Part shown: positions 7,704-56,460 of the stretch, piece by piece | How the letters are laid out: every line of letters starts with the position of its first letter | Numbering within the stretch: position 1 is the first letter of the stretch | NCBI RefSeq assembly: GCF_000308215.1 | Contig: NZ_CAJE01000021.1 | Coordinates: 1-64,000 of the forward strand | Origin: Methanomassiliicoccus luminyensis B10 | Lineage (GTDB): Archaea; Thermoplasmatota; Thermoplasmata; Methanomassiliicoccales; Methanomassiliicoccaceae | DNA length: 64,000 bases | Reading direction: 5' to 3' | The notes under the pieces: model-generated | Told to the model about the DNA's origin: nothing | Databases searched by the model: none | What the model saw: only the letters and a program-made list of their open reading frames with translations | Program-made: the position numbers and the translations under genes

Positions 7704-8288
7704 TCAGTCCCTCATCTTCATGAAGCCCCAGAACGCCGTCAGCGCGAACATGACCGATGGGACCACCACGACCACGCTGGGGACTGCGCCGTCGGTGAGC
7801 GAGATCGCCGCGACGCCGAGGACGAAGACCAGCACGAAGCCGATCGAGCCGTTGAGCACCATTTTCTTACCGATCTCGCGGTTGCTTGTCGTGATCTCAT
7901 GTTTGATCTCGGCCATGCGGCGGCCGCTCTCCGTTACCGCCACGCCCTCCACGGCGGACCAGCATTCTTCCAGCAGCAGGCCCCAGTTCAGTTTTGCTTC
8001 GGCCAGCATCATGGCCACGTCGGAGGAGTTGGCCATCGACGGCGTCGCTGTGACGGTGACCGTGACGCCACCGCTGGTCGGCGCGATAGCGAACTTAAGC
8101 TTCTTCCTGCCGTTGCGCTCCCACGACCTTATGCACTTCAGCGAGCCGTGGGACGCCTCGACGCTCGCCTTCCCATCACTGATGACCTTCTGCGCGTTCT
8201 CCTTTTGCAACCAGAGAACTATTCTATCTGTGATGTCCTCGGGCCTCATGCCCCTGAACTCATGTCGGTAGTTGAGATCCAGTGCCAT
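7704..8288 (-). CDS. Membrane protein with two C-terminal helices, 194 residues
   Basis: I do not recognise a family. Residues 1-140 are soluble, with a beta-rich centre (GVTVTVTATPS) and a helical stretch. Two hydrophobic helices near residues 145-185, separated by a short loop (LTDGAVPS), form a C-terminal hairpin anchor. It starts 19 bases after the stop of the other membrane protein, so the two are co-transcribed as the last genes of the RHS island. By position it could be an immunity or accessory protein of the RHS tail genes, but this is inference. Confidence 0.65.
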   Translation of the reverse strand: MALDLNYRHEFRGMRPEDITDRIVLWLQKENAQKVISDGKASVEASHGSLKCIRSWERNGRKKLKFAIAPTSGGVTVTVTATPSMANSSDVAMMLAEAKLNWGLLLEECWSAVEGVAVTESGRRMAEIKHEITTSNREIGKKMVLNGSIGFVLVFVLGVAAISLTDGAVPSVVVVVPSVMFALTAFWGFMKMRD

Positions 8289-8307
8289 TGTTACGCCTTC
8301 TCTTTCG

Positions 8308-8940
8308 TCAATTCACGTAGATGCGACAATAGTTGTACGCCGGGACCGAGAAAGAGTCCCTCGGGACCTTGCTCATCAAAAGCGCGCACAGCGGGTCGAA
8401 GTTGTCGGAGTCGAGCCTTACATTTATCGCCTGACCCGACCCGGCGATGGCGATGCCGGCGATCTGGTTCGAACCGCCGTAGTAGTCTACGCTGACGACG
8501 CTGTCCCACGGTATCTTGGCTTTTTCCTTGTACCCTCGCAGTCCCGGCCTGAGCTGTCTGATGCCCTCGTCGTTCGCCACGACGACGGAAAACCCAGATT
8601 CTAACGATTGCAATGGGGCCAACGTGACGACCACAATGGTAAAGCAGAGAGTAAACGTAGGCAAATCTCTCATCGTTCCATCGGTCCACGGATCTGTTCC
8701 TCCGAAAATTATGGAGAGTTCGAACAGAAGAATGAACACTATCCAGAAAAAATGTATGAAACCGAAGAAGTAGCCATGCATCTGCTTCCGCCACAGAACC
8801 ATGTTGCGAGGGTCTTCGGTTCTCAGCCTATCTTCCAGAGCCTTCATCCGGCTCGCCGAGCGTCTGAATACCCAGCGTGAAGCTGCATAGGAAACCAGCC
8901 AGCCTATGGCGAATGCGCCAAATGTGATAAGGCAGGCCAA
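8308..8940 (-). CDS. Membrane protein with N-terminal helices, 210 residues
   Basis: No family is recognised. A first membrane helix at about residues 3-23 (LITFGAFAIGWLVSYAA) is followed by basic residues, then two more hydrophobic helices near residues 55-75 and 90-110. The C-terminal half looks like a small beta-rich cytoplasmic domain resembling PH-like folds in its spacing (SVVSVDYYGG). The start is TTG 8940, because no ATG or GTG is available upstream in frame. It sits directly behind the orphan RHS tail, a common place for immunity genes. Confidence 0.6.
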   Translation of the reverse strand: MACLITFGAFAIGWLVSYAASRWVFRRSASRMKALEDRLRTEDPRNMVLWRKQMHGYFFGFIHFFWIVFILLFELSIIFGGTDPWTDGTMRDLPTFTLCFTIVVVTLAPLQSLESGFSVVVANDEGIRQLRPGLRGYKEKAKIPWDSVVSVDYYGGSNQIAGIAIAGSGQAINVRLDSDNFDPLCALLMSKVPRDSFSVPAYNYCRIYVN

Positions 8941-9020
8941 GAATATAGTTATTCACATGCCCCCAACAACCTCTCGCATCTAAAAAGCTCAATAATTGTG
9001 TATGTCACGTTTTATCCCTC

Positions 9021-9572
9021 CTACACCGCGGTGTTAGAAAAGGTACGCACGTCAATCACATCTAGAGGACGCGGACTGGCGACTGCTGTATAACTGGCTA
9101 TGCTAACATAATGCCTTTTCTGAGCCCATTCCATACCAGACTCAGCAATAGAGAGGCCAACGTCAATGGTTAACTGTACTGCCGCACGGTTTCCTCCTGC
9201 AAGATATTCTGGCGCACCAATCATATCCATATATCCCGGTAATCTAAACTCTTTTAAACCAATTTTTGTTGGATATGGGAGCATGGGTTTCAAGTCAACA
9301 AGCTTCACGTTTTTGGCACTGCTAATGAATTTAGTCAATGAACCTGTTTTCAAAGCCGGAGCGAACTCGCCCAGTCCACCAAATGCAGCCCCTATCGCCC
9401 CAGAAATTAGCACTGAGTTCATATCGATTTCCTTACCATCTAATCTCTGGCTAGCATATTCCCCTACCGCACCTGCGGCGAAGCCTCCTCCCATGCCAAT
9501 TGCCAACCCTAAGCCACATGTCGCCCCGGCGATTTCTGTTCTCAGTAAAGGGGCTTGGTTGAGAAAGCCCCC
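9021..9572 (-). pseudogene. Orphan RHS C-terminal module behind an in-frame TAG
   Basis: The frame from just after the TAG at 9573-9575 to the stop at 9021 encodes 183 residues; the first plausible start inside it is TTG 9506 (161 residues). It begins with a glycine- and alanine-rich segment (AIGMGGGFAAGAVGEYAS, ISGAIGAAFGGLG) like the linker that follows the conserved core in RHS proteins, here in the big gene next door. After that comes a unique tail of about 110 residues that I do not recognise. Orphan tails of this kind are left when RHS loci swap their C-termini. DNA is AT-richer than the neighbours. It is in frame with the 60-codon ORF upstream, so the amber codon may be read through. 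Confidence 0.55.
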
Positions 9573-9755
9573 CTATCCTTCTTCCGGTAGATGAGCCAGC
9601 GGGAAGATGCCCAGTTGTTTCAATTCGTTCTCCCTTTTGCTCTTACTATTCATTGTTGGAATTAGTTCCTCATCTAATGATTCAGCTAGGCTTATTTGTT
9701 CCCAGATTGGTTTCTTCACCCTGTTGATTATTATCTGTTCATCATCTTTCATCAA
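9573..9755 (-). CDS. Small charged ORF, 60 residues, ends in TAG
   Basis: It begins with TTG or ATG (9755 or 9752) and is rich in E, K, I and L, helical in appearance (IIINRVKKPIWEQISLAES), with the frame closed by TAG at 9573-9575. The next in-frame sequence is the orphan RHS tail, so the two could be one product of about 244 residues if TAG is decoded as pyrrolysine or is a recent mutation. The start is 37 bases after the stop of the immunity candidate. No family is recognised. Confidence 0.4.
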   Translation of the reverse strand: MMKDDEQIIINRVKKPIWEQISLAESLDEELIPTMNSKSKRENELKQLGIFPLAHLPEEG

Positions 9756-9791
9756 GGTTCACATTTCCTGGCTATAATATCAGCGGCCCAT

Positions 9792-10805
9792 TCATTCATC
9801 GCCTGGCAGAGGATGATCTGACATCCAGTTCTGAAGTGGCTCCCACCAATGCATATCTTTGTACCGGCGCTTGAGCCTCCGAATGACACGACGTCCCTTT
9901 GATGTCAGGCCGAACCGATCTCCATCAACTGCCAGCCATCCCCTCTCACGAAGACGCAGGAACGCCCAGGAGAGCTTATCAGGATCGGGAATATTGATGA
10001 AGAGGTCATCGGCCGATCTGATGACCTCCCATAATGGACGTATGCCGTCCAGGCGATAAAGAGCGTAAGCGACCCATGCCTCGCTGATCAGCCGTTGCGG
10101 TGGAAGGACCCCTCGTTCCCCCGCCAAAGCTGCTTGCAGGAACGGCAGGTATTCCTTTTCGAGCCTGCGGTACTCGGATTCGGCATTTTTGTCGAAGACC
10201 TTGGTCTCGGATTTCCAGATCTCGGCATTTTCATCGCCTGGCAGAGGATGTTCCGACATCCATCTCTCGATCAGTACATACCAGTACATATCATCGTCCT
10301 GGCTCAGGACGTCCCGAACGATATGACTTCCCTCGGGCGTCAGGCCGAACCGATCTCCATCAACTGCCAGCCATCCCCTCTCACGAAGACGCAGGAACGC
10401 CCAGGAGAGCTCGTCACAACTTGGGGAACTATGAAAGACGGCATCGGACCGATAGAGGACATTCCAAAGAGGGCGTATCTCATCGCGGTAATAAAGCGCG
10501 TAAGCCATCCACGCCTCGATGAACCGTCTTTGTGGTGGAGGGACCTCCCGTTCCCCTGCCAACGTCGCTTGCAAGAACGGCAGGTATTCCTTTTCGAGCC
10601 TGCGGTATGCAGATTCGGAATCTTCGACGTATGCTTCGATCCTGGCATTCATAAGCTCGTCCTTGTCGAATCCCATGGATGTCAGTATCTGGTCCAATTC
10701 GCGCCATGGCATCGGCTGGGGCGATCTCCAGTTCCCCTGCGGAGGGGTCACTTCCGCCACCCATAGATCGAGGTTCTCTCCATCAACGATTTTGATTTTC
10801 AGCAT
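9792..10805 (-). CDS. Immunity-candidate protein with internal duplication
   Basis: The 337-residue product starts 13 bases after the stop of the giant RHS gene behind an AGGAG site, the classic position for an immunity protein against the RHS tail. After an N-terminal domain of about 60 residues it has two copies of a 145-residue unit. Each unit begins with YRRLEKEYLPFLQA, contains LSWAFLRLRERGWLAVDGDRFGLT, shown here only as landmarks LSWAFLRLRERGW and VDGDRFGLT, and ends in HPLPGDE. The second part looks like a winged helix. I recognise no family, and the immunity role is inferred from position only. Confidence 0.65.
   Translation of the reverse strand: MLKIKIVDGENLDLWVAEVTPPQGNWRSPQPMPWRELDQILTSMGFDKDELMNARIEAYVEDSESAYRRLEKEYLPFLQATLAGEREVPPPQRRFIEAWMAYALYYRDEIRPLWNVLYRSDAVFHSSPSCDELSWAFLRLRERGWLAVDGDRFGLTPEGSHIVRDVLSQDDDMYWYVLIERWMSEHPLPGDENAEIWKSETKVFDKNAESEYRRLEKEYLPFLQAALAGERGVLPPQRLISEAWVAYALYRLDGIRPLWEVIRSADDLFINIPDPDKLSWAFLRLRERGWLAVDGDRFGLTSKGRRVIRRLKRRYKDMHWWEPLQNWMSDHPLPGDE
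9904..9976 (-). repeat. Direct repeat copy 1, inside the immunity-candidate gene
   Basis: This 73-base segment is identical to 10339-10411. The offset of 435 bases equals exactly 145 codons, so the duplication kept the frame. Identity at the DNA level shows that the duplication is recent or kept uniform by gene conversion. Confidence 0.9.
10339..10411 (-). repeat. Direct repeat copy 2, inside the immunity-candidate gene
   Basis: Identical over 73 bases to 9904-9976. It encodes the LRLRERGW to VDGDRFGLT part of the first protein repeat unit. Confidence 0.9.
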
Positions 10806-10818
10806 TGGTCCGACACTC

Positions 10819-13800
10819 CTAAGGCCAATTGATCTTTATCACATTTTCATATCCTCGTGCTGCTATCTCTTTTAGTTCCAACTGGTAGAATTTTTTAGTT
10901 TCCAAACCCATCTTCACAAACTCTGGATTTCGACCCAGATCTACAACGGGGTATCCCTTATCCATCATTTTGTTAATCCATTTGATATTTTTTACCTCCA
11001 TCTTCGCCTCTGGCATTGTGCTCGGCAGTTTCCGCATGGTCTCGCCGCCGTACTTGAGTTTGAACTCATTGACCCGAGTCATGGATTCCCCAATGACGGC
11101 GAAACGACCGTTTGAAGGAAGGCTCTTGGATATCGGTGATAGTTTTGACGTTATTGATCCGGCAGTAGCTGCCAGACCTTTGGCCGCGAGTTTGGTTATC
11201 GCGGCTCCCGCCCCGAAGCCTATCGCCCCGGTCCCGGCGCCTATTGCCGTGCTCGCCGCCAATCCTTCCCAGGAGAAGCTCGATCCCGCATTCAGACCGT
11301 AATCCAAAGCGCTCGTCCCCGCGCCGATGGCTACCGAAGCGGCAAGGGCGAGAGCGGGTGACGCGACACCCGCGGTCGCCACCGTAAGTACGACACAAAC
11401 AGCGACGACAGCAACTGTCTTCCAATTATTGCTGAACCAGTTGCCAATGTCTCCGAAGATGCTCATTCCGGTCGGGTCGATGAACATCAGCGGGCTGTTC
11501 ACGCAGTACACGTACCGGTTCAGGGTCTGCGGCATCGACAGCGAGCCAAGCTCTGGATCTAGGGCGAGGAACCGTCCCAGCTCCGGATCATAGTAGCGAG
11601 CGAACAGGTACACCAGGCCGGTACCGTCGATCATTTCCCCGGCGAACATAACTTGGTCGTAACCGGTCGGGGAGTAAACGGCGCCGAACGGCTTGTACGT
11701 CACCGCCGAGAACAGGATGTCCTGTGGACCGGCGTTCCCGTTCTTCAGCACCAGTCTCGTCGAACCGAGAGCGTCGGAGATGTAGCAGTCGTTCTCGGTC
11801 CCGTCGACGATCCTTACGGCCAGCCGCCCGTTGGCATACACGTACTTGTTGGTCGTACCGTCGGAGGAGACCTCGTACACGGGATCGTGGCCGGAGTAGA
11901 CGAAGCGGCTTGTGCCCGACGGATCGATCGTCATGGCCCTGGCCCCGTTGGCGTCGTAGCCATATTCGCCCATCACCGCTGAGACCCAGCTACCTGACTG
12001 CCACTGGTATTTGACAACGGAGCTCATCCGGCCGAGCGGGTCATACAGGTAGTTGTACTTCAGCGACGAGGTTTCCTTCCACGCCACGTTCCCGTCCTCA
12101 TCGTACCTGTATCCCCATGTTCCATCCGAGGAGAGCTGGTTGTACACGCCGTAGGAGTACGACACGTTGTTCCCGTTCTCGTTCTTCCATATTCGGTTCC
12201 CGACGGCATCGTAGCCGTACTGTATGCTGCCCCACGCCCCGGTCGCTTTGGTCAAACGACCGAGAGCGTCGTACGTATAGTCCTCCGTGCCCGCCGGACC
12301 GACGCTGTCCTGGATCCTGAGCACGTTGCCTGCCGCGTCGTAGTTGTACCGCAGTCCCAGGATATCGGCACCGTAGCGGTCCTCCGCCGATATGCCGCTG
12401 ACCCATCCTCGTCCGTTGTAAGAGTACGAAACGACGGAGTTGCCGCCGAGGTAGGTTTCCGTTGCTACGGAGCCGTCGAGGTTGTACGCGAGGTGCAGCA
12501 GGTTCGTCCCGCCGGATACTATGTCTACCAAACGGTCGAGGTCGTCGTAAACGTACGATACCCTGCCGGAATCAGGATAGTCGACGTGCAGCAGGTTCCC
12601 GACGTCGTCGTACTCGTACGAGAGAGTGAACGGAACGCCGTCCACGATCTCGATCATCTCGACGACCCGGTCCATGTCGTCATACTGGTAGGTTATCGTG
12701 CCTAGATCGTTGCTTTTCTCGACGACACGTCCTTTGAGATCATAGCCGGTGGTGATGGTATCATCCTCGCTCGCCACGCTCGTCAGGTAGCCGAAGCCGT
12801 CGTAGGAGGATGTGGTCACCAGTCCGCTCCTGGATGTGGATGTGAGCACCTTTCCGGCGTTGTCGTAGGTCCACGATTCGGAGAAGCCGTCCGGGTACAG
12901 GATGGAGGTCTGCCGGCCCAAGGCGTCGTAGTGCATGCGGGTGACTTCGCCGTTGGCCTGCCTCACGGTCTTGAGGTTGCCGGCGGCATCGTAGCTCATC
13001 AGCGTCTCGTAGTACTGCGTCGAGGAGTGGTACTCCCGGGAAGCGTTAAGGCGACCCAGCACGTCGTACTTCATCACTTTCTTGTTGCCGAGCTCGTCGA
13101 TGTACGTTACCAGGCGGTTCACGTCATCGTACTCGGTGTACGATGCGTACCTGCTGGTGACGCTGCCGGCGCATTCGACGGAGAGATCGTCGTAGTACAC
13201 GGTGAAGCGGTCCGCGTTGGAGCCGCCGATATCGACGAAGAATTCGAACCTCACATCGTCGCAGCGAGACCAGTCGATGTTCCAATCATCGGAGGGATGA
13301 AGAACGATATTCAGCCAGGTGTTCAGGGCCGGCTTGCCGTAGATGACCTTGGTGTTCGGGTCCGTTGTAGTTCGGCTGTCCGAACTTTGGGTCCAGCATG
13401 ACAGCCAGTACGTGTAGTTGGCATAATTGCTCCCGGAGGCGTCGTACAACCTCAGCTTGATGCCTGACTCAAGGCGGTCCCACTGCCAGCCGTTGTGAGA
13501 GTACTCGCTCACGAACATCTTCACCGAGAGATCCGATATCTCACTGGCGCTGAGGTCCTTGCTCATCGTCGTGGTGCCGTAATCCTGACCGTCGGCGCCT
13601 CCTCCGATAGAGGTGAGCTTCACGGACTGCCCGGCGGAATGGTATTGCTCGGTCGAGAACGAGGAGGTAAGCCAGGAGCGGTGCGAGTACGGCTGCCATC
13701 CCGCGGTCGAAGTGAAGTCATCATTGATGGTCGTGGCACCGGTCCCTTCATCGTAAACGGCGGCGGAGGTTTGGCGACCAAGATAATCATATGAGTACTC

Positions 13801-16800
13801 GGTCGCCCGGCCCATCTCGTCTACTACCCGGACAGGCAGGTCCTGCCAGTTATATTCATACGTGACTTGGGAGTGCGGCGTGCTCGACAACCCGTAGCTT
13901 TCCACCTTGACGAGGCGGCCGATGACGTCGTAGTAGCTCACGGTCTTGCGTCCCAGCTCGTCATAGTAAGCGGCCTTGTTGTTCTCGTCGTCGTACTCGA
14001 TGGAAACGCTGGTCCCGTCGGGGTTGGTCGTCCTAACGGTCCGGCCGAGCACATCGTACTGATAGCTGGTCGTAGCGTCGTAGGCGTCGGTGACTGAATT
14101 TAGCCGCCCGGTGGCAAGATCGTAAGAATATGATGTTCGCCCCCGCTCGTCCTGCGCCCGGCCATGTATGGATAGGTCGTCATAGTTTACCCTGAACTTG
14201 TCGGCGACGGTGCCGGAACCGTATACATGGAGCTCGATGCGCACCTTTGAGCAATCGCTCCAATCTATATCCCAGTCCTCAGAAGGATGCAGAACGACGT
14301 CAAGCCAGGCGTTCATCGGCGGCTTGCCGTAGATGACCTTAGTGTAGCTATCGGGAGCGGTGCGATTGTCCGTTGATTGTCTCCAGCATGCCAGCCAATA
14401 GGCGTAGGTGGCGTAATTGGTACCGGAGGCGTCGTACAATCTCATACGTATGGCAGAGTCCAGGGTGTCCCATTGGCGGCCGTCGTGAGAGTGCTCGCTC
14501 ACGTACATCTTCGTCGAGATCTCGTTTACCTCAGCGATGTTGTATTCCTTCCAGGCGGTGACGGAGCCGGTATCGTAGGTACTGGGAGCGCCGGTGGTGA
14601 AACCGAGCTCCACCGAGCTGGAGGGAGAGCAGTATCTGGACGTGCTGTATTGCCCTACCAGCCAAGCAACATTGCCGTTGCTTGAACCTTTAGACAGAGT
14701 CCAACCGCTCGGCGATCCGAAGTTTTCCAGTTCTTCGACCGCTTCGCCGATCGCAGCGCCCCATGTACGCTCCAGGTATGTTCTTCCGTCCCCATATTCG
14801 TAATACGTCCTCACGCCGGCGGCATCGGTGCTCGACACCAGATTGCCGCAGATGTCGTAGAACGACTCGGTGCAGGCCCATCCGGAGCCAAGCCTGGACT
14901 TCGACGCGATAGGATACCCGTCATAATTGTACTTGATGTAGCTATCCTGCGCTGTCGTTCCTTCGTCGTTCTGATAGGTCAGCGCGCCTGCCAGACTGCT
15001 GTGCAGATCGCTCTTGATGTTGTTCGCGTAGAAGTCGGTCCCCTCGTAGCTGAACTTGTCGTAGTTGTAGATCTCATCATAGACGGGGCTGGCGTAGACC
15101 AAGGTCCCGACGCTGTCGTAGATCTCGAAGGAAGCGGAGATGGGGAACGCCCGAACGCCCTGGGAGTACAGGTCCAGAGTTACAGAGCCGGAAGTGGCGG
15201 TCTTCGACACCGTGGTACCGTTCACCAGCGTCATCTTCACCGTCATGCCGGACGATAGGCCGTCCACCCTGACCCCGAGGCCATGGACGCCGGAGCTGTC
15301 CCACTTGGCCGTCCCGCCCCTGAGGCCGTAGATGATCCCATAGATGTTGCTGCCATCAGGTATCCCAAGGTCAGATGCCTTGACGGTAAGTTGTGCCCAT
15401 TGCCCCGTAATCTGCGGCACGTTCCCGATGCGATGAATGTGTTGTGATAGGGGTTCCAGTTCAGAGGGAACTAGAGTGGTGAATGCATCGTTTCCAGATG
15501 TGTCTCCGCCCCAGTATGCTCTCTTCCAGACACCGTTGACGAAGTACTGGAGCACGATCTCTTGAGGCATCTTCCCGTCCTCAAGCCATATATACTGAAC
15601 GATAGCGTCCGATGCGTTCACGCGCATGTAGGATGTGGTGGATTTGAAGCCGTGGCCGTGATTATATATGCTTATCGAGTACCCACTCTGCCGATACTTG
15701 TCGCTGGTGACGGCATAATCGGAATCCGTTATCCAACTGTACTCCATCATGAAGGAATAAGTGGTCGAGCCGGACGGCCAGGCATCGTCGGCGATGGAGC
15801 TCCGGGATTGAGCGTATCCGCTGGAGATCCCCTTCACACCTGCGATGAAAGTGCCGTCTACGACAGAGTACGCATCCCCGCCCCAGATGTCCATCATGGG
15901 GGTGGAGATCGAGGTGTCACCTACTTTGAGAAGCCTAATGTACGCAGGTAACGACAGCCGGGAGAACGGAGGGATGCTGAGCGTTCCGGACTTGCTGCGG
16001 TCCAGAAGCTCGCCCCTTGAGTTGTACAGCTCGACGATGTCGTCCGCTTCCAGCCCGCTGACGGTGACGGTGCTGCTCTTGTATATCCGGACGTCGTCGA
16101 ACCACAGGGCGGTCGCGGTTCCGCCATTTGAGTTTGCCTGGAACCTTATGGCGTTGAGCTGTCCCGACGCCAAGAGGGGAACGTTGCTCTTCACCAGCAC
16201 TCCGTCGATATAGATGTCGTATGCATTGCTGGAGTACTTGACGGCGAACCCGACATCGTACCATGTGTTAGGCGCACATGGTGCGACCGAGACCCATGCG
16301 CTTCCGGTATAATATTTGAAATAGCCGCCCTGCGACTCGAAATTGATCCGGGCCGTGCTGCCACTCATCGCCATGATGTAGTTTGGAAGCGTGTTCCGCG
16401 TCATGAAGGAGGTCTGGATGTTGAAGTTGCCGCTCTGCCCGGCGAACTGATGAGTTGCTGACAAGTCGCCGGACGTTGTTGTTCGAGTAAGCTTGAGGGA
16501 CGGCGCTCTTGTCGGGTCCGCAGATCCGTCCAGCTGCACGCTCCCCGCTCCGGCGTCCACGGTCCAATCCGAAAGGTCCCAGTCATCGAACGCGTCGTGG
16601 AATATTTTGCCAGTAGAGGTCCTTTCCAGTATGGTCCCGCCCTGGAACGAGTTCTGGGTATCGGTGTTGGCGTACGAATAGTATGAGTCGTGGCCGAGGG
16701 CGTCCCTGGTGAATATCACGTTGCCCCAGTCATCGTAGGCCATGTACTCCGAGTAGCTTACCTCAGCAGAGCTGCCGCTGTAGGTGTCCACTCTGCTTGG

Positions 16801-19668
16801 CTGTCCCCTGGCGTCGTACCACGTGGTGGTCTTCTGCATCTGCTCGCCCGCCGGGCCGAGCACGATCTCGCTGGAACTCTTCAGCGTGGACTGGAAGATG
16901 TAGATGTTGCTTCCCTGTATCGTCCCTGTTTCGTCGTAATTGACGAGCTTGCAGTAAGTCACCTTGCCGTTGACGATCTTGTAGTCGAAGGAGGTCTGGC
17001 GGATCAGAGCGTTGGTGGCCGCGTTCCTGATGGATTCCGAGATCACCAGTCGGGACGTTACTTCTGTCGCGGGAGTCTGATCCACACCGTAAGTGTACTG
17101 CACCTTTCCTCCGCTCGGATAGGTTATGCTGTTGAGCAGATAGTTGCTGCTCGGATCATAGGTGAACGTGGTGACCCTGTCATCGGCATCGGTCACTGAC
17201 GCAAGGAACTGCTGTCCATCGTGCTGAGCGTAGCCGTACTGGATCGTTTCCCCGTCCGGCCGCATTATGCTGCTCAGCAGCCCATTGGAGTTGTAGTAGA
17301 ACGTTATGGTCCGTCCCAGTGCCGAATCGGTTATGGATGTAAGGCGGCTGCCGCTATACTCGAGGGTCAGGCAGTTGTATGGTTCCGTGTATGAAGCGGC
17401 ACCGGGATCATAGTTCGCGAGATCAGATATCTTCTTGAGAGCGTAGCCGGAGTGATCGAACTGATATCTCAGTCCGGCCGACGTGATCAGCTCGTAATAT
17501 TTCGTCCCTTGCTTGTTCACGTCACGCAGGACGAAATGCACCCCGTCGTGATTGACGAACTCTTTGGCATCGCCTTCATTACCCCACTGAATGACGAAGC
17601 GCTGCCCGTTGGCCAGGTACACGTACCGATCATCCATCCACGGCAGGTCGAGCGACCAGAACCGGCCCATGTTGCAGGACGGGAACGCCTTGTAATCATA
17701 TGGCGTATTGTGCATGAAATATTTCGGTTGCTGGTATATCCTCGATACCCCGAGGTCCAGGCCTCCCCGGCCGGTGATGGAGACATCGTTCTGAACGAGG
17801 GTTAGCTGGCCTGACCCCGGGGAGATATACTGGCCGTTCATGGCGAAATATGTCCCATACGGGGACAGCCCGTCCCTGTCCCAGGGGTCCGATGAATAGC
17901 CGGAGGTGCCGAATGGAAGTGGGATACTGGCATAACTGATTGAGCATGAACCGTCAAAAAAGTAGTTGGTCCATGCCAGTGCCAATGAGTTAATGGGGCT
18001 AACCCATGAGGTTAGTTGATCAAGGAAGACCTCGAATAAGTCCCCACAAGAACAAAGAGTGCCACCTGACCAAGAGCCAGAGTTTGCATATTTTTGATAA
18101 TGTTGAACCAATGTTTCAGATGTTTCCTCATTAAAATAAGATATGTGCAGAAGGTTATTCGCATCAAGACTGATTGTAGGTGAATAACCACGCCCTATAT
18201 TGGAAATGGGGTGGGAACCATCAAGACCTATGGCAACGTATCGAACATATTTGTCGGTTCCTACATAGGCAATGTGGACCGCCCCATCCGATGATGCTAC
18301 AGCCGAAAACTGCCCCGCATTATAGATTGGGGAATAGCCGGAGAACATACCGATATCGTAAGGATATGGCCCTGCCCAACCATTTGTTTCAGGCAGATAA
18401 TAGCTTATCCGAATGTATTGATTTTGATGTCCTGAAGGACTATAACCTGTTTCAAGCAGAGCTACGGACCCTCTTGCGAGCGGAAGTAGAACGATGTTCC
18501 AGTGAGAATAGAGGTCATTCCATGGCGGCACAGTCCAGGACAAATGAAAGCTGTCTTCTTCACAAGTTGCCGATTTCCAGACACGCGTACAGTATGACAC
18601 CCCTCCGCCATCACAATAGTATGCTACCCAGTAGACGCCGTCCCCTATAGCCACCGATACTGGCGTTTTTAAGATATAGTAATTCGCATCATAGCACTTA
18701 TCGATCAGAGCCCTGTCAATCCACTGTATGGTAGTCCCTATTACGGTACCTTTTTTCACGTATACTGTCAGGGATGAATCGCACCATCCCACCATCAGAT
18801 TTCCATCTCTAAATGCAACATCGAATCCACATTCAGGATGAGGGGTAGTTCCCTGCGGCAGCGATACCTGGCCACTCCAAGTGATGCCATCCGCACTGTA
18901 CCGGTAGCAGATGGCCGTCCCACTGTTGTAGAACAGCCAGTAGATGCCGTCATACCAGAACATCTTCCGTTGGCAAGCGAATCCTGTCGCATTCACATTG
19001 GGGACATCCCCGACCACGGTCGGATCGATGACCTCTTCCCCTTCCCGGAACGAGATTACCAGCGACCGTCTCTCCTTCTCTGGGGTTCCTTCGCTCCTCG
19101 CATCGTGCCGAGCGACGCTCAGGTCCCCTTCCGCGGCATCGTTCCAGTCGATCGTCAGCTTCTCCGAGCCGACGTTCAACGTAATGCTGAGATCTGACGA
19201 GGACGGCCTCTTGCCGACAATATCATCAAGAGATGTTCCCGCCCATTGCGCGTCAGACTCATCCACTGTGGCGTCCTCTCCCGGGATGATGACCCAGGCG
19301 ATGTTCCAACCCTTCATATCGGCATCGGGCGCGACGACCGAGGCGGTGATCTTCGGTCTCTTCCCTTCCTCGAAGTCGTATACGACGGTCATGTCCCAAG
19401 CGGCCTTTGACAACGCGTCGTTGAGCGAGTAGCTTATCTCCAGGCGCTCATCGACGGCGGATAAGATCTTTCCGCCGAGGATATCGAACGACTCGCCTCC
19501 GGCATCGAGGGTAAAGAACGATTCCTCCACCAGCTTAGTGCCGTTCAGGGACGTCAAGGACATCTTTTCCGGCCGGGACTCGTTGAAAATATAAACGCCA
19601 TAGAGGGTCCAGTAGCAAATGCCATACGGTTCTTTGGTCATGTAGCTCTGGGGGATGATATCGTCCAA
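10819..19668 (-). CDS. Giant RHS/YD-repeat surface protein with toxin-like tail
   Basis: The open frame has 2949 codons. Residues about 190-600 look like a beta-propeller (repeats with WYDGIYWLFYN, SADGITWSG). GRGGLDLGVSRIYQQP near 625 is like the segment that opens RHS shells. Many YD repeats follow (YDALGR, YDDLDRL, YGYDAVGNR). Inserts include a LamG-like domain (about 1015-1195) and two similar jelly-roll-like domains (about 1650-1830 and 1985-2170). The core ends with LGRFLALDPELG, NRYVYCVNSPL and DPTGM near 2735. The last 214 residues are a hydrophobic linker plus a tail with NGRFAVIGESMTRV and KNIKWINKMMDKG, which resembles tails of bacterial RHS toxins; its activity is unknown. The signal peptide lies upstream in another frame (see 19638-19877). 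Confidence 0.85.
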   Translation of the reverse strand: MDDIIPQSYMTKEPYGICYWTLYGVYIFNESRPEKMSLTSLNGTKLVEESFFTLDAGGESFDILGGKILSAVDERLEISYSLNDALSKAAWDMTVVYDFEEGKRPKITASVVAPDADMKGWNIAWVIIPGEDATVDESDAQWAGTSLDDIVGKRPSSSDLSITLNVGSEKLTIDWNDAAEGDLSVARHDARSEGTPEKERRSLVISFREGEEVIDPTVVGDVPNVNATGFACQRKMFWYDGIYWLFYNSGTAICYRYSADGITWSGQVSLPQGTTPHPECGFDVAFRDGNLMVGWCDSSLTVYVKKGTVIGTTIQWIDRALIDKCYDANYYILKTPVSVAIGDGVYWVAYYCDGGGVSYCTRVWKSATCEEDSFHLSWTVPPWNDLYSHWNIVLLPLARGSVALLETGYSPSGHQNQYIRISYYLPETNGWAGPYPYDIGMFSGYSPIYNAGQFSAVASSDGAVHIAYVGTDKYVRYVAIGLDGSHPISNIGRGYSPTISLDANNLLHISYFNEETSETLVQHYQKYANSGSWSGGTLCSCGDLFEVFLDQLTSWVSPINSLALAWTNYFFDGSCSISYASIPLPFGTSGYSSDPWDRDGLSPYGTYFAMNGQYISPGSGQLTLVQNDVSITGRGGLDLGVSRIYQQPKYFMHNTPYDYKAFPSCNMGRFWSLDLPWMDDRYVYLANGQRFVIQWGNEGDAKEFVNHDGVHFVLRDVNKQGTKYYELITSAGLRYQFDHSGYALKKISDLANYDPGAASYTEPYNCLTLEYSGSRLTSITDSALGRTITFYYNSNGLLSSIMRPDGETIQYGYAQHDGQQFLASVTDADDRVTTFTYDPSSNYLLNSITYPSGGKVQYTYGVDQTPATEVTSRLVISESIRNAATNALIRQTSFDYKIVNGKVTYCKLVNYDETGTIQGSNIYIFQSTLKSSSEIVLGPAGEQMQKTTTWYDARGQPSRVDTYSGSSAEVSYSEYMAYDDWGNVIFTRDALGHDSYYSYANTDTQNSFQGGTILERTSTGKIFHDAFDDWDLSDWTVDAGAGSVQLDGSADPTRAPSLKLTRTTTSGDLSATHQFAGQSGNFNIQTSFMTRNTLPNYIMAMSGSTARINFESQGGYFKYYTGSAWVSVAPCAPNTWYDVGFAVKYSSNAYDIYIDGVLVKSNVPLLASGQLNAIRFQANSNGGTATALWFDDVRIYKSSTVTVSGLEADDIVELYNSRGELLDRSKSGTLSIPPFSRLSLPAYIRLLKVGDTSISTPMMDIWGGDAYSVVDGTFIAGVKGISSGYAQSRSSIADDAWPSGSTTYSFMMEYSWITDSDYAVTSDKYRQSGYSISIYNHGHGFKSTTSYMRVNASDAIVQYIWLEDGKMPQEIVLQYFVNGVWKRAYWGGDTSGNDAFTTLVPSELEPLSQHIHRIGNVPQITGQWAQLTVKASDLGIPDGSNIYGIIYGLRGGTAKWDSSGVHGLGVRVDGLSSGMTVKMTLVNGTTVSKTATSGSVTLDLYSQGVRAFPISASFEIYDSVGTLVYASPVYDEIYNYDKFSYEGTDFYANNIKSDLHSSLAGALTYQNDEGTTAQDSYIKYNYDGYPIASKSRLGSGWACTESFYDICGNLVSSTDAAGVRTYYEYGDGRTYLERTWGAAIGEAVEELENFGSPSGWTLSKGSSNGNVAWLVGQYSTSRYCSPSSSVELGFTTGAPSTYDTGSVTAWKEYNIAEVNEISTKMYVSEHSHDGRQWDTLDSAIRMRLYDASGTNYATYAYWLACWRQSTDNRTAPDSYTKVIYGKPPMNAWLDVVLHPSEDWDIDWSDCSKVRIELHVYGSGTVADKFRVNYDDLSIHGRAQDERGRTSYSYDLATGRLNSVTDAYDATTSYQYDVLGRTVRTTNPDGTSVSIEYDDENNKAAYYDELGRKTVSYYDVIGRLVKVESYGLSSTPHSQVTYEYNWQDLPVRVVDEMGRATEYSYDYLGRQTSAAVYDEGTGATTINDDFTSTAGWQPYSHRSWLTSSFSTEQYHSAGQSVKLTSIGGGADGQDYGTTTMSKDLSASEISDLSVKMFVSEYSHNGWQWDRLESGIKLRLYDASGSNYANYTYWLSCWTQSSDSRTTTDPNTKVIYGKPALNTWLNIVLHPSDDWNIDWSRCDDVRFEFFVDIGGSNADRFTVYYDDLSVECAGSVTSRYASYTEYDDVNRLVTYIDELGNKKVMKYDVLGRLNASREYHSSTQYYETLMSYDAAGNLKTVRQANGEVTRMHYDALGRQTSILYPDGFSESWTYDNAGKVLTSTSRSGLVTTSSYDGFGYLTSVASEDDTITTGYDLKGRVVEKSNDLGTITYQYDDMDRVVEMIEIVDGVPFTLSYEYDDVGNLLHVDYPDSGRVSYVYDDLDRLVDIVSGGTNLLHLAYNLDGSVATETYLGGNSVVSYSYNGRGWVSGISAEDRYGADILGLRYNYDAAGNVLRIQDSVGPAGTEDYTYDALGRLTKATGAWGSIQYGYDAVGNRIWKNENGNNVSYSYGVYNQLSSDGTWGYRYDEDGNVAWKETSSLKYNYLYDPLGRMSSVVKYQWQSGSWVSAVMGEYGYDANGARAMTIDPSGTSRFVYSGHDPVYEVSSDGTTNKYVYANGRLAVRIVDGTENDCYISDALGSTRLVLKNGNAGPQDILFSAVTYKPFGAVYSPTGYDQVMFAGEMIDGTGLVYLFARYYDPELGRFLALDPELGSLSMPQTLNRYVYCVNSPLMFIDPTGMSIFGDIGNWFSNNWKTVAVVAVCVVLTVATAGVASPALALAASVAIGAGTSALDYGLNAGSSFSWEGLAASTAIGAGTGAIGFGAGAAITKLAAKGLAATAGSITSKLSPISKSLPSNGRFAVIGESMTRVNEFKLKYGGETMRKLPSTMPEAKMEVKNIKWINKMMDKGYPVVDLGRNPEFVKMGLETKKFYQLELKEIAARGYENVIKINWP

Positions 19669-19862
19669 CGACGATACGGTCGGCTCGATCGGCGAGCTGA
19701 AGCGGTCCCGTTGCCGTTATCCGTCAGGTCGGCGCTGCCGCTCTTCTTCGGAACCGTTCCCTCTGCTCCGGTCATGCAACTGAACGAGACGGACACCACC
19801 AGCAAGGCCATGGCTATCGCGGAAGCGGCCTTGCGGTAATCGAACGATTTGTTCATTACCAT
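19638..19862 (-). pseudogene. Signal peptide of the RHS protein, frame broken
   Basis: The frame from ATG 19862 (or GTG/ATG neighbours at 19877 and 19856) encodes basic residues, a hydrophobic core AIAMALLVVSVSFSC and then TGAEGTVPKKSG, a clear secretion signal. A GGTGGGGGAG ribosome site lies just upstream. The frame ends at 19638, overlapping the start of the RHS frame, which lies one base away. The RHS frame reads FSSPIEPTVSSLDDIIPQ where this one reads ARRSSRPYRRW, so one missing base near 19695-19715 would join them. A sequencing slip, a genuine frameshift mutation or recoding are all possible. I see no classic slippery heptamer. Confidence 0.7.
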
Positions 19863-19923
19863 GTTCTCCCCCACCATTTCACGCGGCTCTACGATCCCCT
19901 GTCGAAGGCCACGCTGCTGAACG

Positions 19924-52118: not shown

Positions 52119-55100
52119 TCAGATCTTTCTCCTCCGAGACATCCTTTCCACCGTTGCGCTGGCGGCTACGATGCCCACCACGCCCACCAGAGGCAAGAAG
52201 ATGGTCAAATCGATGTTGCCTAGGGCGATGTTGATGGCCGAGTCCTCACCGAGCTCGCTCACTGGCTCCTCATAGAACGTCCACAACTGGTTGGCGTCGC
52301 TCAATTGATTGTTATAGTATACCCAGAGGGTTGGAGCGTTTCCACCGGTCTTCCCATATGTGAATCCGACCACCAATACGATGTCTAGATCCCCATCGCC
52401 GTCCAGGTCGCCCAGTTGGACAGCCCGAGTATCATATGTACCATCGATGCATTTTGTAGCTAGCCCCGTGGTCACTACTGCCCTAATGTCAAACTCTTTT
52501 TTCGAATACTGGGTTGCAATGTACAGTGCCCCATTATCGGTCGTTTTGACGGTCGAGAACACAATATCGTTCAGATTGGCTGCATTCTTTGTTATGTCTC
52601 CTACGGTCAGGGCAGTTATGGCAGGACTTGATGAAGTGAAGCCAGTCACTTGGGCCGGGGTGCCAAACACTACGGTCTGAGTGTAGTGGTTTATCACCAG
52701 CATGTTGATAGACAGTGTATCTTTTACATTATCCGTGCCATTGTTTGTATCTGTCACTTTGATGTAATACTTACTGTTTGGTGTATATGGCAACAGTTTA
52801 TGATGTGTGGTTTCCGTTTTCGAGCTCACCATGAAGGCATCGAACCACGTCTCATTGTCAACTGAATACTGGACACGAAATGATTCTGAGCCAGAGACGT
52901 TAGCCACCATGATCAGATCATGGAAGGCTCGAGCCACGTTCGGTATCTCCCACTGCCATCCCAGTTCACAGGTCTTGACAAATTGAACGTCAAGTCCAAT
53001 GTGATCGAACGCTACTGAACCCTCTGACCCCGAAGGATTATTGAAACTGATGCGCAGGTATTTCAGCTCATCCCAAGTATCCACCCCGAGAGCCCATAGG
53101 TCAATCTCCGCAGTGTTAACGCCAGTACCACTGGGAGTTGGCTTAGCAAGTACATTAGCCAATGTGCTACCATTGTGATACTCCAGCAGTATATCTTGGC
53201 CAGCATAGCTACCGCTCGCCGTCCAAGAAATATGCAATGTCGCATTGGAAACTAGCTTGCTAGCGTAAATCTGAGGGGGGGCGAAACCATTGATAGTCAT
53301 TGTCTCCCCTGCGCTTACGACGTAACATTTGCCGTCGTTGTTGTAAGTGTTAGATAATACCTGGCCTGGATTTATACTAGCATCATTGGTGGCATGCAGG
53401 GTCTGGTTCGCATAGTATACATATGTCTCGGTCAAGTGCTCATACATGTTGTCAACGGCTGCTAGATTGGCCTTGGACCCAGTTATTGTTGCCGCTTTAT
53501 TGCTGTCGATGTTGAACTCAAGGGTAGGAGATTTCGAATCAGGAGTACCGCTAGTGGGCGTGGTGTAGAATATATAAATATTGTTATCCAATGTGCTAGT
53601 CCTGATTATGTCGGGATAGCCGTTTCCATCCATGTCCGCCATCTCTACCAGTGGTTGGTATTGACTGGCAGTGGTGTGTTCCCATGGTGTATGTCCCCCA
53701 ACACTCTGGCTAGTTGTGCTATCAAGGACCATGGGGGCAGTGGAGTTAAAGGCGCCCTCCTCCCGAGCTGCAGTGTCCCCAGTCTTTACGGACCACTGAT
53801 TTAGCCAAACCTTTGTCGTACCATCCTGATAGACAGCGACCACGTCGGGGAACCCGTCCTGGTTGATGTCCCCTACGGCAATATCGCCGGCTGCGGGATT
53901 TTTATCCCCATTAGCGACATTCTCAGAATTAGCGGCATTGTTGTTTTTCCAATCACCGGTCCCATATAATAGGGTCTTAGTCCATTTTCCATCATTCCAG
54001 AAGACGTAAATACCGCGATTGAAGAACATGGCCCAGCTGTTTGAGGCAGATGCTTCCTCCTCACTACCTGCGGTAGTGTAGATTACAACGTGGATAAAAC
54101 TGGCGACAATGTCCCCATCCCCATCCCCATCCAAGTCTCCTATTGATATTTGACCGACTAGCTCATTTTGACAAACATATGTTTTACCATCATATGATGT
54201 AACAAACGAATCAATATCTGCTACCTTAATCGGTCCCGTATATCTTTCATAGTCGACCCAAAGGGTCGCATCCTCGTTCGCATTGCCCTTGTCGCCATTA
54301 CCAGTCCAGCGTTCCCCATTGGACTCAGTGTGAGATTTGGTTGAGGCTTGATTTCCGGTATTGGCATCGAACGCAGAAGATATTACTCTAGCTGATGACC
54401 ATGAACTCCCATCGATTGCCTCATTCTCATACCATACAATATTAGCAGACGTGCTGGACTGGCTCCCTACTACGACATCGTCCTTGCCATCGCCATTTAT
54501 ATCATATAGTACAAGCGCCAGCGGCCCTGAGGCGGGGTTCCCATCGATCAATGTATAATCCCATTGGTCGCCGCCCTGATACCAGACGATCTTGCTGTTG
54601 GCCCATGTAGCACCGGAGGCAGACCAAGTGAACGTCCCTGAGCCAAGGCTTGCCAGAATGTCAGTGGTCGTCCGAGGCGCGGTCACCTCGAACTGGCAAC
54701 TAATGGAGCTGTATTTTTCACCGATGCTGCTCCCCTCGTCCCCAGTGTCTGCTAGTGAATTAATCTTGAGAGTGTATGTATTTGTTCCAGGCAGCCACCA
54801 GCTCTGATACACATCGTATAGGACAAGATATAGCGAGTATGTTCCACCGCTGCCGATGATCGGTGTCTTAGAGGCCCCGTCCGTCTTGAACAGGGAGCTC
54901 ATCGGCTTGTTATATGTTGGTGTGTCGGTGTAGGCTGCTGCCGACTTCTGGACTATGTAAGTACCAGTGAAATCCCTGATCTGCAGATCGCTAAGGAGGA
55001 CGGTCTTAGCAGACTTGTCCACATCCCGGGTGTTGATAAGCACATACATGGTGTCGGTATGATTGAACTTAGTGGTCTTGATCAGGTTGCCGGTGGCAAC

Positions 55101-56411
55101 GTCCAACTTATAAGTTGTTATGCTTGGATAATCTCTGCCCCCGACGTTAATTGTGTCGGCTATGTTTGCCGACTTACCAGTATTATCCTTTAGCTTGATC
55201 TCCAAGGTATATGTATAGCTCTGCGACGGGGCGTCGAAGCTATACGTGTACTTGTAGAAATTACCGAAGCCTTCCTGGGATGTGAAAGCGGAGGTAGACG
55301 ACTGAGGGCTCATGGCTTGTCCAGTCAGGGGAAAGATCAGGTTGACGATGTTGTCATAGGCCATGTTCCTAATGGTATCGCTCCATAGTTCTATGGTGAC
55401 CCGGTCGCCGGGGGAGAAGTCCCTAGTGATTTCACCCTGAGCATTCTTGATGTAGTAGAAGGTCGTCCCGAGGGTCCCGCCCGAGTTTCCGCCGCTAGAA
55501 TTGGGGGGATATGTGCCGTTCACCCATGACCCGGGGTAGTCGTCGTAGGGGGTGGAACCGCCGCCTCCAGAGGGCGATATCAGCACAATTAGGACCAGCC
55601 TAGCCGGCGTCAGGGCCTTCCCATCAGAATCCTGCGCGTTCACGTAAACCGCGGCCCTATTCCACGAGATATCAGCATCATATTTGCTAACCGATGTGAA
55701 TACGTTGTCACCGTCTAGGTCAGTGAGAGGAATAGTTCCCTGTCCGATCGAGGTGGCATTGAGGGTAACGCTGTTCCTGTCCAGTTTTCCATCTGGATCG
55801 AAGATCGACGCGTAGAACGTGACCTTGTTCCCGGCATAGGTCGGGCTAGGGTCCATTCCCCTGTCCCCGATAATAGGCTGAGACATGGCCGCCTGGCTGC
55901 CGCCCAGGAGCGAGGCCTGATACACAACGGTGTTGGCCTCTGGATCAACGATCATCACACTGATGACCGTGCTCAAGGACACACCAGTAAGCTTGTAAGA
56001 CCAGGTCGTCCCGGTCGACCATTGTCCAGAGTATATCCCGCCATCCGACAGGTGCAGAGGTATGGGATTGTTATTGACGAAGAGGTAGATGTTGGTCCTG
56101 TAATCTTCTAATGTGTTCCCGCCTTTATGCGTCAGGTTCGCGTAGGCGATCCCGGAGGTGGGATCGAACTGCAACTTGGGAGTGAAATCGGTGTAGACCT
56201 TCTCTGCCGGGCCGGGCATCGAAGAGACGAACCACATGATTGTGGAGAACAATGTGACGGTGATCGCCAGTATCAGCAGGTTGCCTATGATCTCGGACAC
56301 GCCTTGTCTGGTCCAGGCCTTCTTCTTGAGAACTGTTCGCCTGGCGCTCATGCTTGGGCTGGATCGTTCGGCCCGACGACCGGTCGCCCTATCCTGGATT
56401 ATCCTACTCAT
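52119..56411 (-). CDS. Surface protein with pilin-like N-terminus and FG-GAP repeats
   Basis: A 1430-residue exported protein. The N-terminal QGVSEIIGNLLILAITVTLF matches the archaeal type IV pilin motif, preceded by a basic leader ending TRQG, the class III cleavage type. Acidic calcium-binding FG-GAP/VCBS motifs occur at about residues 637 (DINGDGKDD), 763 (DLDGDGDGD), 850 (DINQDGFPD), 927 (DMDGNGYPD) and 1335 (DLDGDGDLD). A C-terminal helix (IFLPLVGVVGIVAASA) with RRRK anchors it to the membrane. The leader fits better from ATG 56351 (17 residues), the frame from 56411. It is transcribed together with the reductase gene downstream. Confidence 0.8.
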   Translation of the reverse strand: MSRIIQDRATGRRAERSSPSMSARRTVLKKKAWTRQGVSEIIGNLLILAITVTLFSTIMWFVSSMPGPAEKVYTDFTPKLQFDPTSGIAYANLTHKGGNTLEDYRTNIYLFVNNNPIPLHLSDGGIYSGQWSTGTTWSYKLTGVSLSTVISVMIVDPEANTVVYQASLLGGSQAAMSQPIIGDRGMDPSPTYAGNKVTFYASIFDPDGKLDRNSVTLNATSIGQGTIPLTDLDGDNVFTSVSKYDADISWNRAAVYVNAQDSDGKALTPARLVLIVLISPSGGGGSTPYDDYPGSWVNGTYPPNSSGGNSGGTLGTTFYYIKNAQGEITRDFSPGDRVTIELWSDTIRNMAYDNIVNLIFPLTGQAMSPQSSTSAFTSQEGFGNFYKYTYSFDAPSQSYTYTLEIKLKDNTGKSANIADTINVGGRDYPSITTYKLDVATGNLIKTTKFNHTDTMYVLINTRDVDKSAKTVLLSDLQIRDFTGTYIVQKSAAAYTDTPTYNKPMSSLFKTDGASKTPIIGSGGTYSLYLVLYDVYQSWWLPGTNTYTLKINSLADTGDEGSSIGEKYSSISCQFEVTAPRTTTDILASLGSGTFTWSASGATWANSKIVWYQGGDQWDYTLIDGNPASGPLALVLYDINGDGKDDVVVGSQSSTSANIVWYENEAIDGSSWSSARVISSAFDANTGNQASTKSHTESNGERWTGNGDKGNANEDATLWVDYERYTGPIKVADIDSFVTSYDGKTYVCQNELVGQISIGDLDGDGDGDIVASFIHVVIYTTAGSEEEASASNSWAMFFNRGIYVFWNDGKWTKTLLYGTGDWKNNNAANSENVANGDKNPAAGDIAVGDINQDGFPDVVAVYQDGTTKVWLNQWSVKTGDTAAREEGAFNSTAPMVLDSTTSQSVGGHTPWEHTTASQYQPLVEMADMDGNGYPDIIRTSTLDNNIYIFYTTPTSGTPDSKSPTLEFNIDSNKAATITGSKANLAAVDNMYEHLTETYVYYANQTLHATNDASINPGQVLSNTYNNDGKCYVVSAGETMTINGFAPPQIYASKLVSNATLHISWTASGSYAGQDILLEYHNGSTLANVLAKPTPSGTGVNTAEIDLWALGVDTWDELKYLRISFNNPSGSEGSVAFDHIGLDVQFVKTCELGWQWEIPNVARAFHDLIMVANVSGSESFRVQYSVDNETWFDAFMVSSKTETTHHKLLPYTPNSKYYIKVTDTNNGTDNVKDTLSINMLVINHYTQTVVFGTPAQVTGFTSSSPAITALTVGDITKNAANLNDIVFSTVKTTDNGALYIATQYSKKEFDIRAVVTTGLATKCIDGTYDTRAVQLGDLDGDGDLDIVLVVGFTYGKTGGNAPTLWVYYNNQLSDANQLWTFYEEPVSELGEDSAINIALGNIDLTIFLPLVGVVGIVAASATVERMSRRRKI

Positions 56412-56460
56412 CACTGATCACCGCTCCTATCGATTTGAGCGGGTAAAATCCGGCATGAGC

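Follow-up and report, generated by a model that had tools for sequence, protein, structure and literature searches.

Whether a methanogen carries a polymorphic toxin of the bacterial RHS kind is the question raised by a locus in the window, the whole stretch of 64,000 nucleotides analysed here. Bacteria have RHS polymorphic toxins in abundance, but very few archaea have been reported to have any. Bacterial RHS/WapA proteins have a Sec signal peptide, a YD-repeat shaft, a core that ends in DPxG and a variable C-terminal tail, with a small gene downstream. The original prediction recognized such a layout in the window; the features that we assign to it are collected in Table 1.

Table 1 Features of the locus, in order of transcription, with positions in the window
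Feature	Position	Strand	Remarks
Secretion signal peptide ORF (MNKSFDYRKAASAIAMALLVVSVSFSCMTGAEG...)	19638..19877	-	Other frame than RHS ORF; hydrophobic residues 16-39
Apparent frame break interval	19638..19719	-	Main-frame stop TAA 19719-19717; signal-frame stop TGA 19640-19638
RHS/YD-repeat giant protein	10819..19668	-	2,949 codons from internal TTG; Pfam and NCBIfam matches
RHS-associated core domain	11464..11697	-	Residues 2658-2735, last letters DPTGM; TIGR03696
Hydrophobic linker	11104..11463	-	Residues 2736-2855; predicted membrane segment about 2748-2784
Tail A, variable 94-residue C-terminal domain, putative toxin	10819..11103	-	Residues 2856-2949; GC 0.44
337-aa winged-helix protein with internal duplication, putative cognate immunity protein	9792..10805	-	Homologue after tail A in G022
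60-aa ORF between immunity gene and possible orphan tail	9573..9755	-	No match above curated cut-off
Possible orphan tail	9021..9560	-	Gly/Ala-rich linker-like start and unique C-terminus; no ATG
Membrane protein with soluble C-terminal domain, possible orphan-tail immunity protein	8308..8940	-	About 3 predicted helices
Second membrane protein, probably an ordinary flanking gene	7704..8288	-	About 2 predicted helices; GC3 0.84

A giant RHS/YD-repeat gene in an archaeal genome

The giant ORF does encode the YD-repeat protein of nearly 3,000 residues that had been described: its 2,949 codons matched Pfam RHS_repeat in 11 stretches (E 3.8e-58). The proposed end of the core at DPTGM was confirmed by NCBIfam Rhs_assc_core (TIGR03696), which scored 65.8 bits there against a cut-off of 32.5 bits; the protein has two DP motifs, LDPELG and IDPTGM. 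The window gene thus combines RHS/YD repeats with an RHS-associated core that has a DPxG end, and its core is the only one found in the 2.62-Mb draft genome. Within the gene, two 291-nt segments (13270-13560 and 14260-14550) are 73% identical and constitute a repeated insert (D1). A domain related to this insert occurs in a separate secreted protein encoded upstream of the RHS gene of G126, another genome of the same order (L024, 16573-17295).

The surroundings of the gene are archaeal. The window genome has mcrA, and the contig encodes an archaeal TFB and an A-type ATPase, as well as PALP and TPP-enzyme genes that are likely to serve coenzyme M synthesis; mcrA and the archaeal contig genes identify the host as a methanogen or a close relative, probably of the Methanomassiliicoccales. 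Also on the window, within a low-GC stretch, a gene at 52119-56414 encodes a protein of 1,431 aa that begins like an archaeal type IV pilin and contains FG-GAP repeats, possibly a giant pilin-like adhesin.

The expectation that such genes are rare in archaea was supported, as the RHS core was found in 7 of 147 genomes of the order, two of which (G027 and G028) resemble bacterial contamination. The matches concerned, L008 in G027 and L007 and L010 in G028, look like Bacteroidales sequence and were set aside as likely assembly contamination. We considered whether the window gene might likewise be bacterial contamination or a misassembly within an archaeal bin, to which those two genomes and the 4.29% contamination for the window genome (G000) lend some colour. 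This is very improbable, because the gene sits on a 126,785-base contig together with archaeal genes for TFB, an A-type ATPase and, probably, coenzyme M synthesis, and because its shaft or core is common to three further genomes of the same order.

The secretion signal lies out of frame

The start of the RHS ORF (10819-19668) has no signal peptide in its own frame; a secretion signal is encoded upstream in another frame. In the G126 homologue, which is 38% identical to the giant protein over residues 1-2805, the signal peptide and the RHS protein lie within one frame, and main-frame homology to G126 picks up again at TVSSLDD. An N-terminal export signal is therefore present out of frame in the window and in frame in G126. 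No further break interrupts the window gene, so the frame would have been broken by a recent mutation or else by an error of assembly, the latter being possible in a draft genome of 26 contigs. With its signal peptide out of frame, the window copy may be mis-assembled; if the assembly is right, it may be inactive and silent.

The break between 19638 and 19719 is also what would be seen in a decaying remnant, that is, a once-functional RHS toxin gene that lost its secretion signal by frameshift and is now accompanied by leftover tails and immunity genes. Such a history is compatible with the identity of the locus as a toxin locus and differs from it on whether the window copy still works. We regard decay as a real possibility, if not the expectation: no other break interrupts the 2,949 codons that remain, the ORFs of tail and neighbour are whole, and the 26-contig assembly could itself account for the break.

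Related genes have similar cores and different tails

The shaft or core of the window gene also occurs in G002, G126 and G019, all of the same order. G126 has two cores, one in its main RHS gene and one in an orphan core-tail fragment downstream of it. Core identity to the window is 69/132 for G126 main, 59/101 for G126 orphan, 75/132 for G019 and 86/133 for G002, whose contig stops just past the core. With cores 52-65% identical to that of the window, G126 main, G126 orphan and G019 have tails that, beyond the linker, resemble the window tail only at background level. A search for the same core with different tails, proposed as a check in the original prediction, has thus found them, and the tail is not fixed across relatives; its fixation would have counted against the prediction.

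The distinct tail had been put at 214 residues. Residues 2856-2949 are indeed distinct, and we call them tail A, but residues 2736-2855 are a linker that is common to G126 (44 of 117 residues are the same in the linker of its orphan fragment). The DNA for tail A has a GC content of 0.44 compared with a gene mean of 0.56; residues 283-564 of the same gene have third positions that are as AT-rich, so base composition is weak evidence for tail A.

Within G126, main gene and orphan have 88 of 102 core residues in common, and their DNA is 85% identical over 302 nt, up to the core boundary, beyond which the tails are unrelated. That the similarity ends where the tails begin is direct evidence of tail exchange. 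An orphan cassette with core homology is therefore found in G126, where a pentapeptide-repeat gene follows the main tail and a membrane protein follows the orphan tail. A different shaft family is represented in the same order by a 1,815-aa RHS protein of G047 (L025, 1143-6590), with a hydrophobic linker and a tail of its own.

Tail A resembles the tail of a Leptospira RHS protein

No named family matched tail A above cut-off in Pfam, NCBIfam or PADLOC, and scans with it of a genome-contig collection and of IMG/VR returned no match. The sole other match of a phylum-wide profile search, in G344, was rejected as spurious because the ORF is unrelated and the match is N-terminal in it. Elsewhere in the order, tail A was found in one genome only among the 147, G022 (E 8.7e-10).

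The tails of the window and of G022 each independently matched, weakly, the same RHS protein from a Leptospira noguchii plasmid (WP_243820825.1), at its extreme C-terminus. Tail A and this protein have the motifs VIGExMT, KW[IL]NxxMxxGYxxxD[IL]GRNP and FY in common, and profile comparison gave an hhalign E value of 9.3e-9, with shuffle z-scores of 9.0 and 10.5. The suggestion that the tail resembles bacterial RHS tails was thereby substantiated, and the alignments indicate that tail A is homologous to the C-terminal domain of WP_243820825.1. In the Leptospira protein this domain occupies the same position as tail A and a small gene lies directly downstream; its 161-aa product has no similarity that we could find to the archaeal winged-helix protein described below.

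The Leptospira tail had no match in IMG/VR, PDB sequence searches with either tail returned nothing credible, and an AlphaFold model of tail A (pLDDT 47.6) was unusable. With low confidence, we guess that tail A is a small enzyme.

A winged-helix neighbour travels with tail A

The small adjoining gene that the prediction had pointed out is present, its 337-aa ORF starting 13 bases past the RHS stop codon. In G022 a homologue of the 337-aa gene again comes directly after tail A, overlapping it in the letters TAATG; no RHS core match was found in that genome, and its tail A looks truncated upstream. The anticipated pairing of tail type with neighbour type was therefore observed, at two loci (window and G022), and at both tail A has a specific downstream gene, a candidate immunity partner. 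The neighbour family was found in 3 of the order's 147 genomes, and across a sample of 390 genomes from the phylum it matched only the window's own genome.

G022 also has several further copies of the winged-helix partner, standing alone or broken and with no detected tail (L020, 5675-6133; L021, 8174-8743; L027), as expected of orphan immunity genes. Of the 337-aa homologues, one is broken in G022 and one is degraded in G019, which would suit a decaying system.

Family searches of the 337-aa protein (Pfam, NCBIfam and PADLOC) gave weak winged-helix matches only, a PDB sequence search gave nothing credible and an IMG/VR scan gave no match. AlphaFold modelled the first half of the protein at pLDDT 82.4, and Foldseek found weak matches to this half in the PDB, mostly winged-helix regulators (best E 0.012). 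That an immunity protein next to a polymorphic toxin can have a wHTH fold is known from Imm-NMB0513/DUF596 (PMC3482391), which has no sequence match to the 337-aa protein and is like it in fold type only. The 337-aa protein is likely to be an immunity protein; it could also be a DNA-binding regulator.

A regulator would fit a surface adhesin or structural shaft, in which the variable end serves recognition rather than killing. The winged-helix fold of the neighbour, the duplicated D1 inserts inside the giant protein, the related insert-type domain that G126 secretes separately, and a similarity of the giant protein to carbohydrate-binding domains that stays below threshold (E 0.2) can all be cited for it. 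We nevertheless think an adhesin improbable, as toxin/immunity modules typically show both orphan core-tail fragments and a tail accompanied by its specific neighbour, and an adhesive tip needs no cytoplasmic partner that overlaps its reading frame.

Genes further downstream

The second, orphan tail of the prediction is no more than a candidate. The ORF at 9021-9560 has a linker-like start; it lacks an ATG, a core remnant upstream and a convincing relative, homologue searches having given weak matches to its Gly/Ala-rich part only. Thus the window's possible orphan is without the core homology seen in the G126 cassette, and a tail with neither start nor core is a further point in favour of a decaying locus.

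Both of the membrane proteins foreseen further downstream have predicted helices, and neither matched a named family above cut-off in Pfam, NCBIfam or PADLOC. In its C-terminal domain, the first (8308-8940) is like the membrane protein that comes after the orphan tail of G126 (shuffle z 5.7). It may therefore confer immunity, a reading weakened by similar proteins in genomes without an RHS core. Membrane proteins in which a unit resembling it occurs twice are encoded in G017 (L037, 1018-2199) and G018 (L038, 1012-2109), where no RHS core match was found. A proposed link to membrane proteins of G019 and G022 was not significant and was dropped. The second gene (7704-8288) is probably outside the island: its GC3 of 0.84 compares with 0.42-0.68 in the possible orphan tail, the 337-aa gene and the first membrane protein gene, and such flank-like codon usage suggests that it may not belong.

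Discussion

An RHS core, tail exchange, an orphan cassette in a relative, a recurrent tail/partner pair and homology to a bacterial tail are hallmarks of polymorphic toxins, and we consider it probable that the locus is an archaeal RHS polymorphic toxin/immunity system. Within this interpretation, the variation of tails, the recurring pairing and the bacterial homology have stood up to scrutiny, while the export signal is out of frame and the second orphan tail is unproven. Like bacterial RHS/WapA proteins, the window gene has a YD shaft, a DPxG core end, a variable tail and a downstream gene; it differs from them in its archaeal host, in the extra inserts of its shaft and in having its signal out of frame.

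Few genomes of the order have the RHS core, but the class itself has been on record in archaea since 2012, when Zhang et al. (PMC3482391) described RHS polymorphic toxins of Methanosarcina acetivorans, together with their toxin and immunity cassettes. The RHS core model also matched the M. acetivorans control genome. Those systems likewise combine an RHS-repeat protein with exchangeable toxin/immunity cassettes in a methanogen. They belong to another archaeal order, the window locus having what appears to be a shaft family of its own, and tail A and its winged-helix partner matched no library family. The window locus is thus of the same class as the archaeal RHS toxins of 2012, from another lineage and with an undescribed tail and partner.

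By analogy with bacterial systems, we infer a course of action that would run from autocleavage and translocation to toxicity in a target and immunity in the producer. The giant protein appears built for Sec export and would present its YD-repeat shaft. As in bacterial RHS proteins, the tail may be cut off at the core end DPTGM, and the hydrophobic linker may help tail A across the target membrane. Tail A would then act inside a cell nearby, most likely that of a related archaeon and perhaps as a small enzyme, and in the producer the 337-aa winged-helix protein would bind and neutralise it. Recombination at the core's 3′ end would swap the tails, with orphan core-tail fragments as donors. That the locus is at present a working archaeon-on-archaeon RHS weapon, comprising a toxin family without a described activity and a new winged-helix immunity family that is internally duplicated and confined to a few species, is a proposal that we put forward tentatively.

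Through tail A, an uncharacterised family of bacterial RHS tails is connected with a second partner gene that looks unrelated to the first. That a single archaeal order has at least three types of tail on one shaft family, and an orphan cassette beside its parent gene, supports tail exchange within archaea, and the locus offers compact putative toxin/immunity pairs for the study of archaeal competition.
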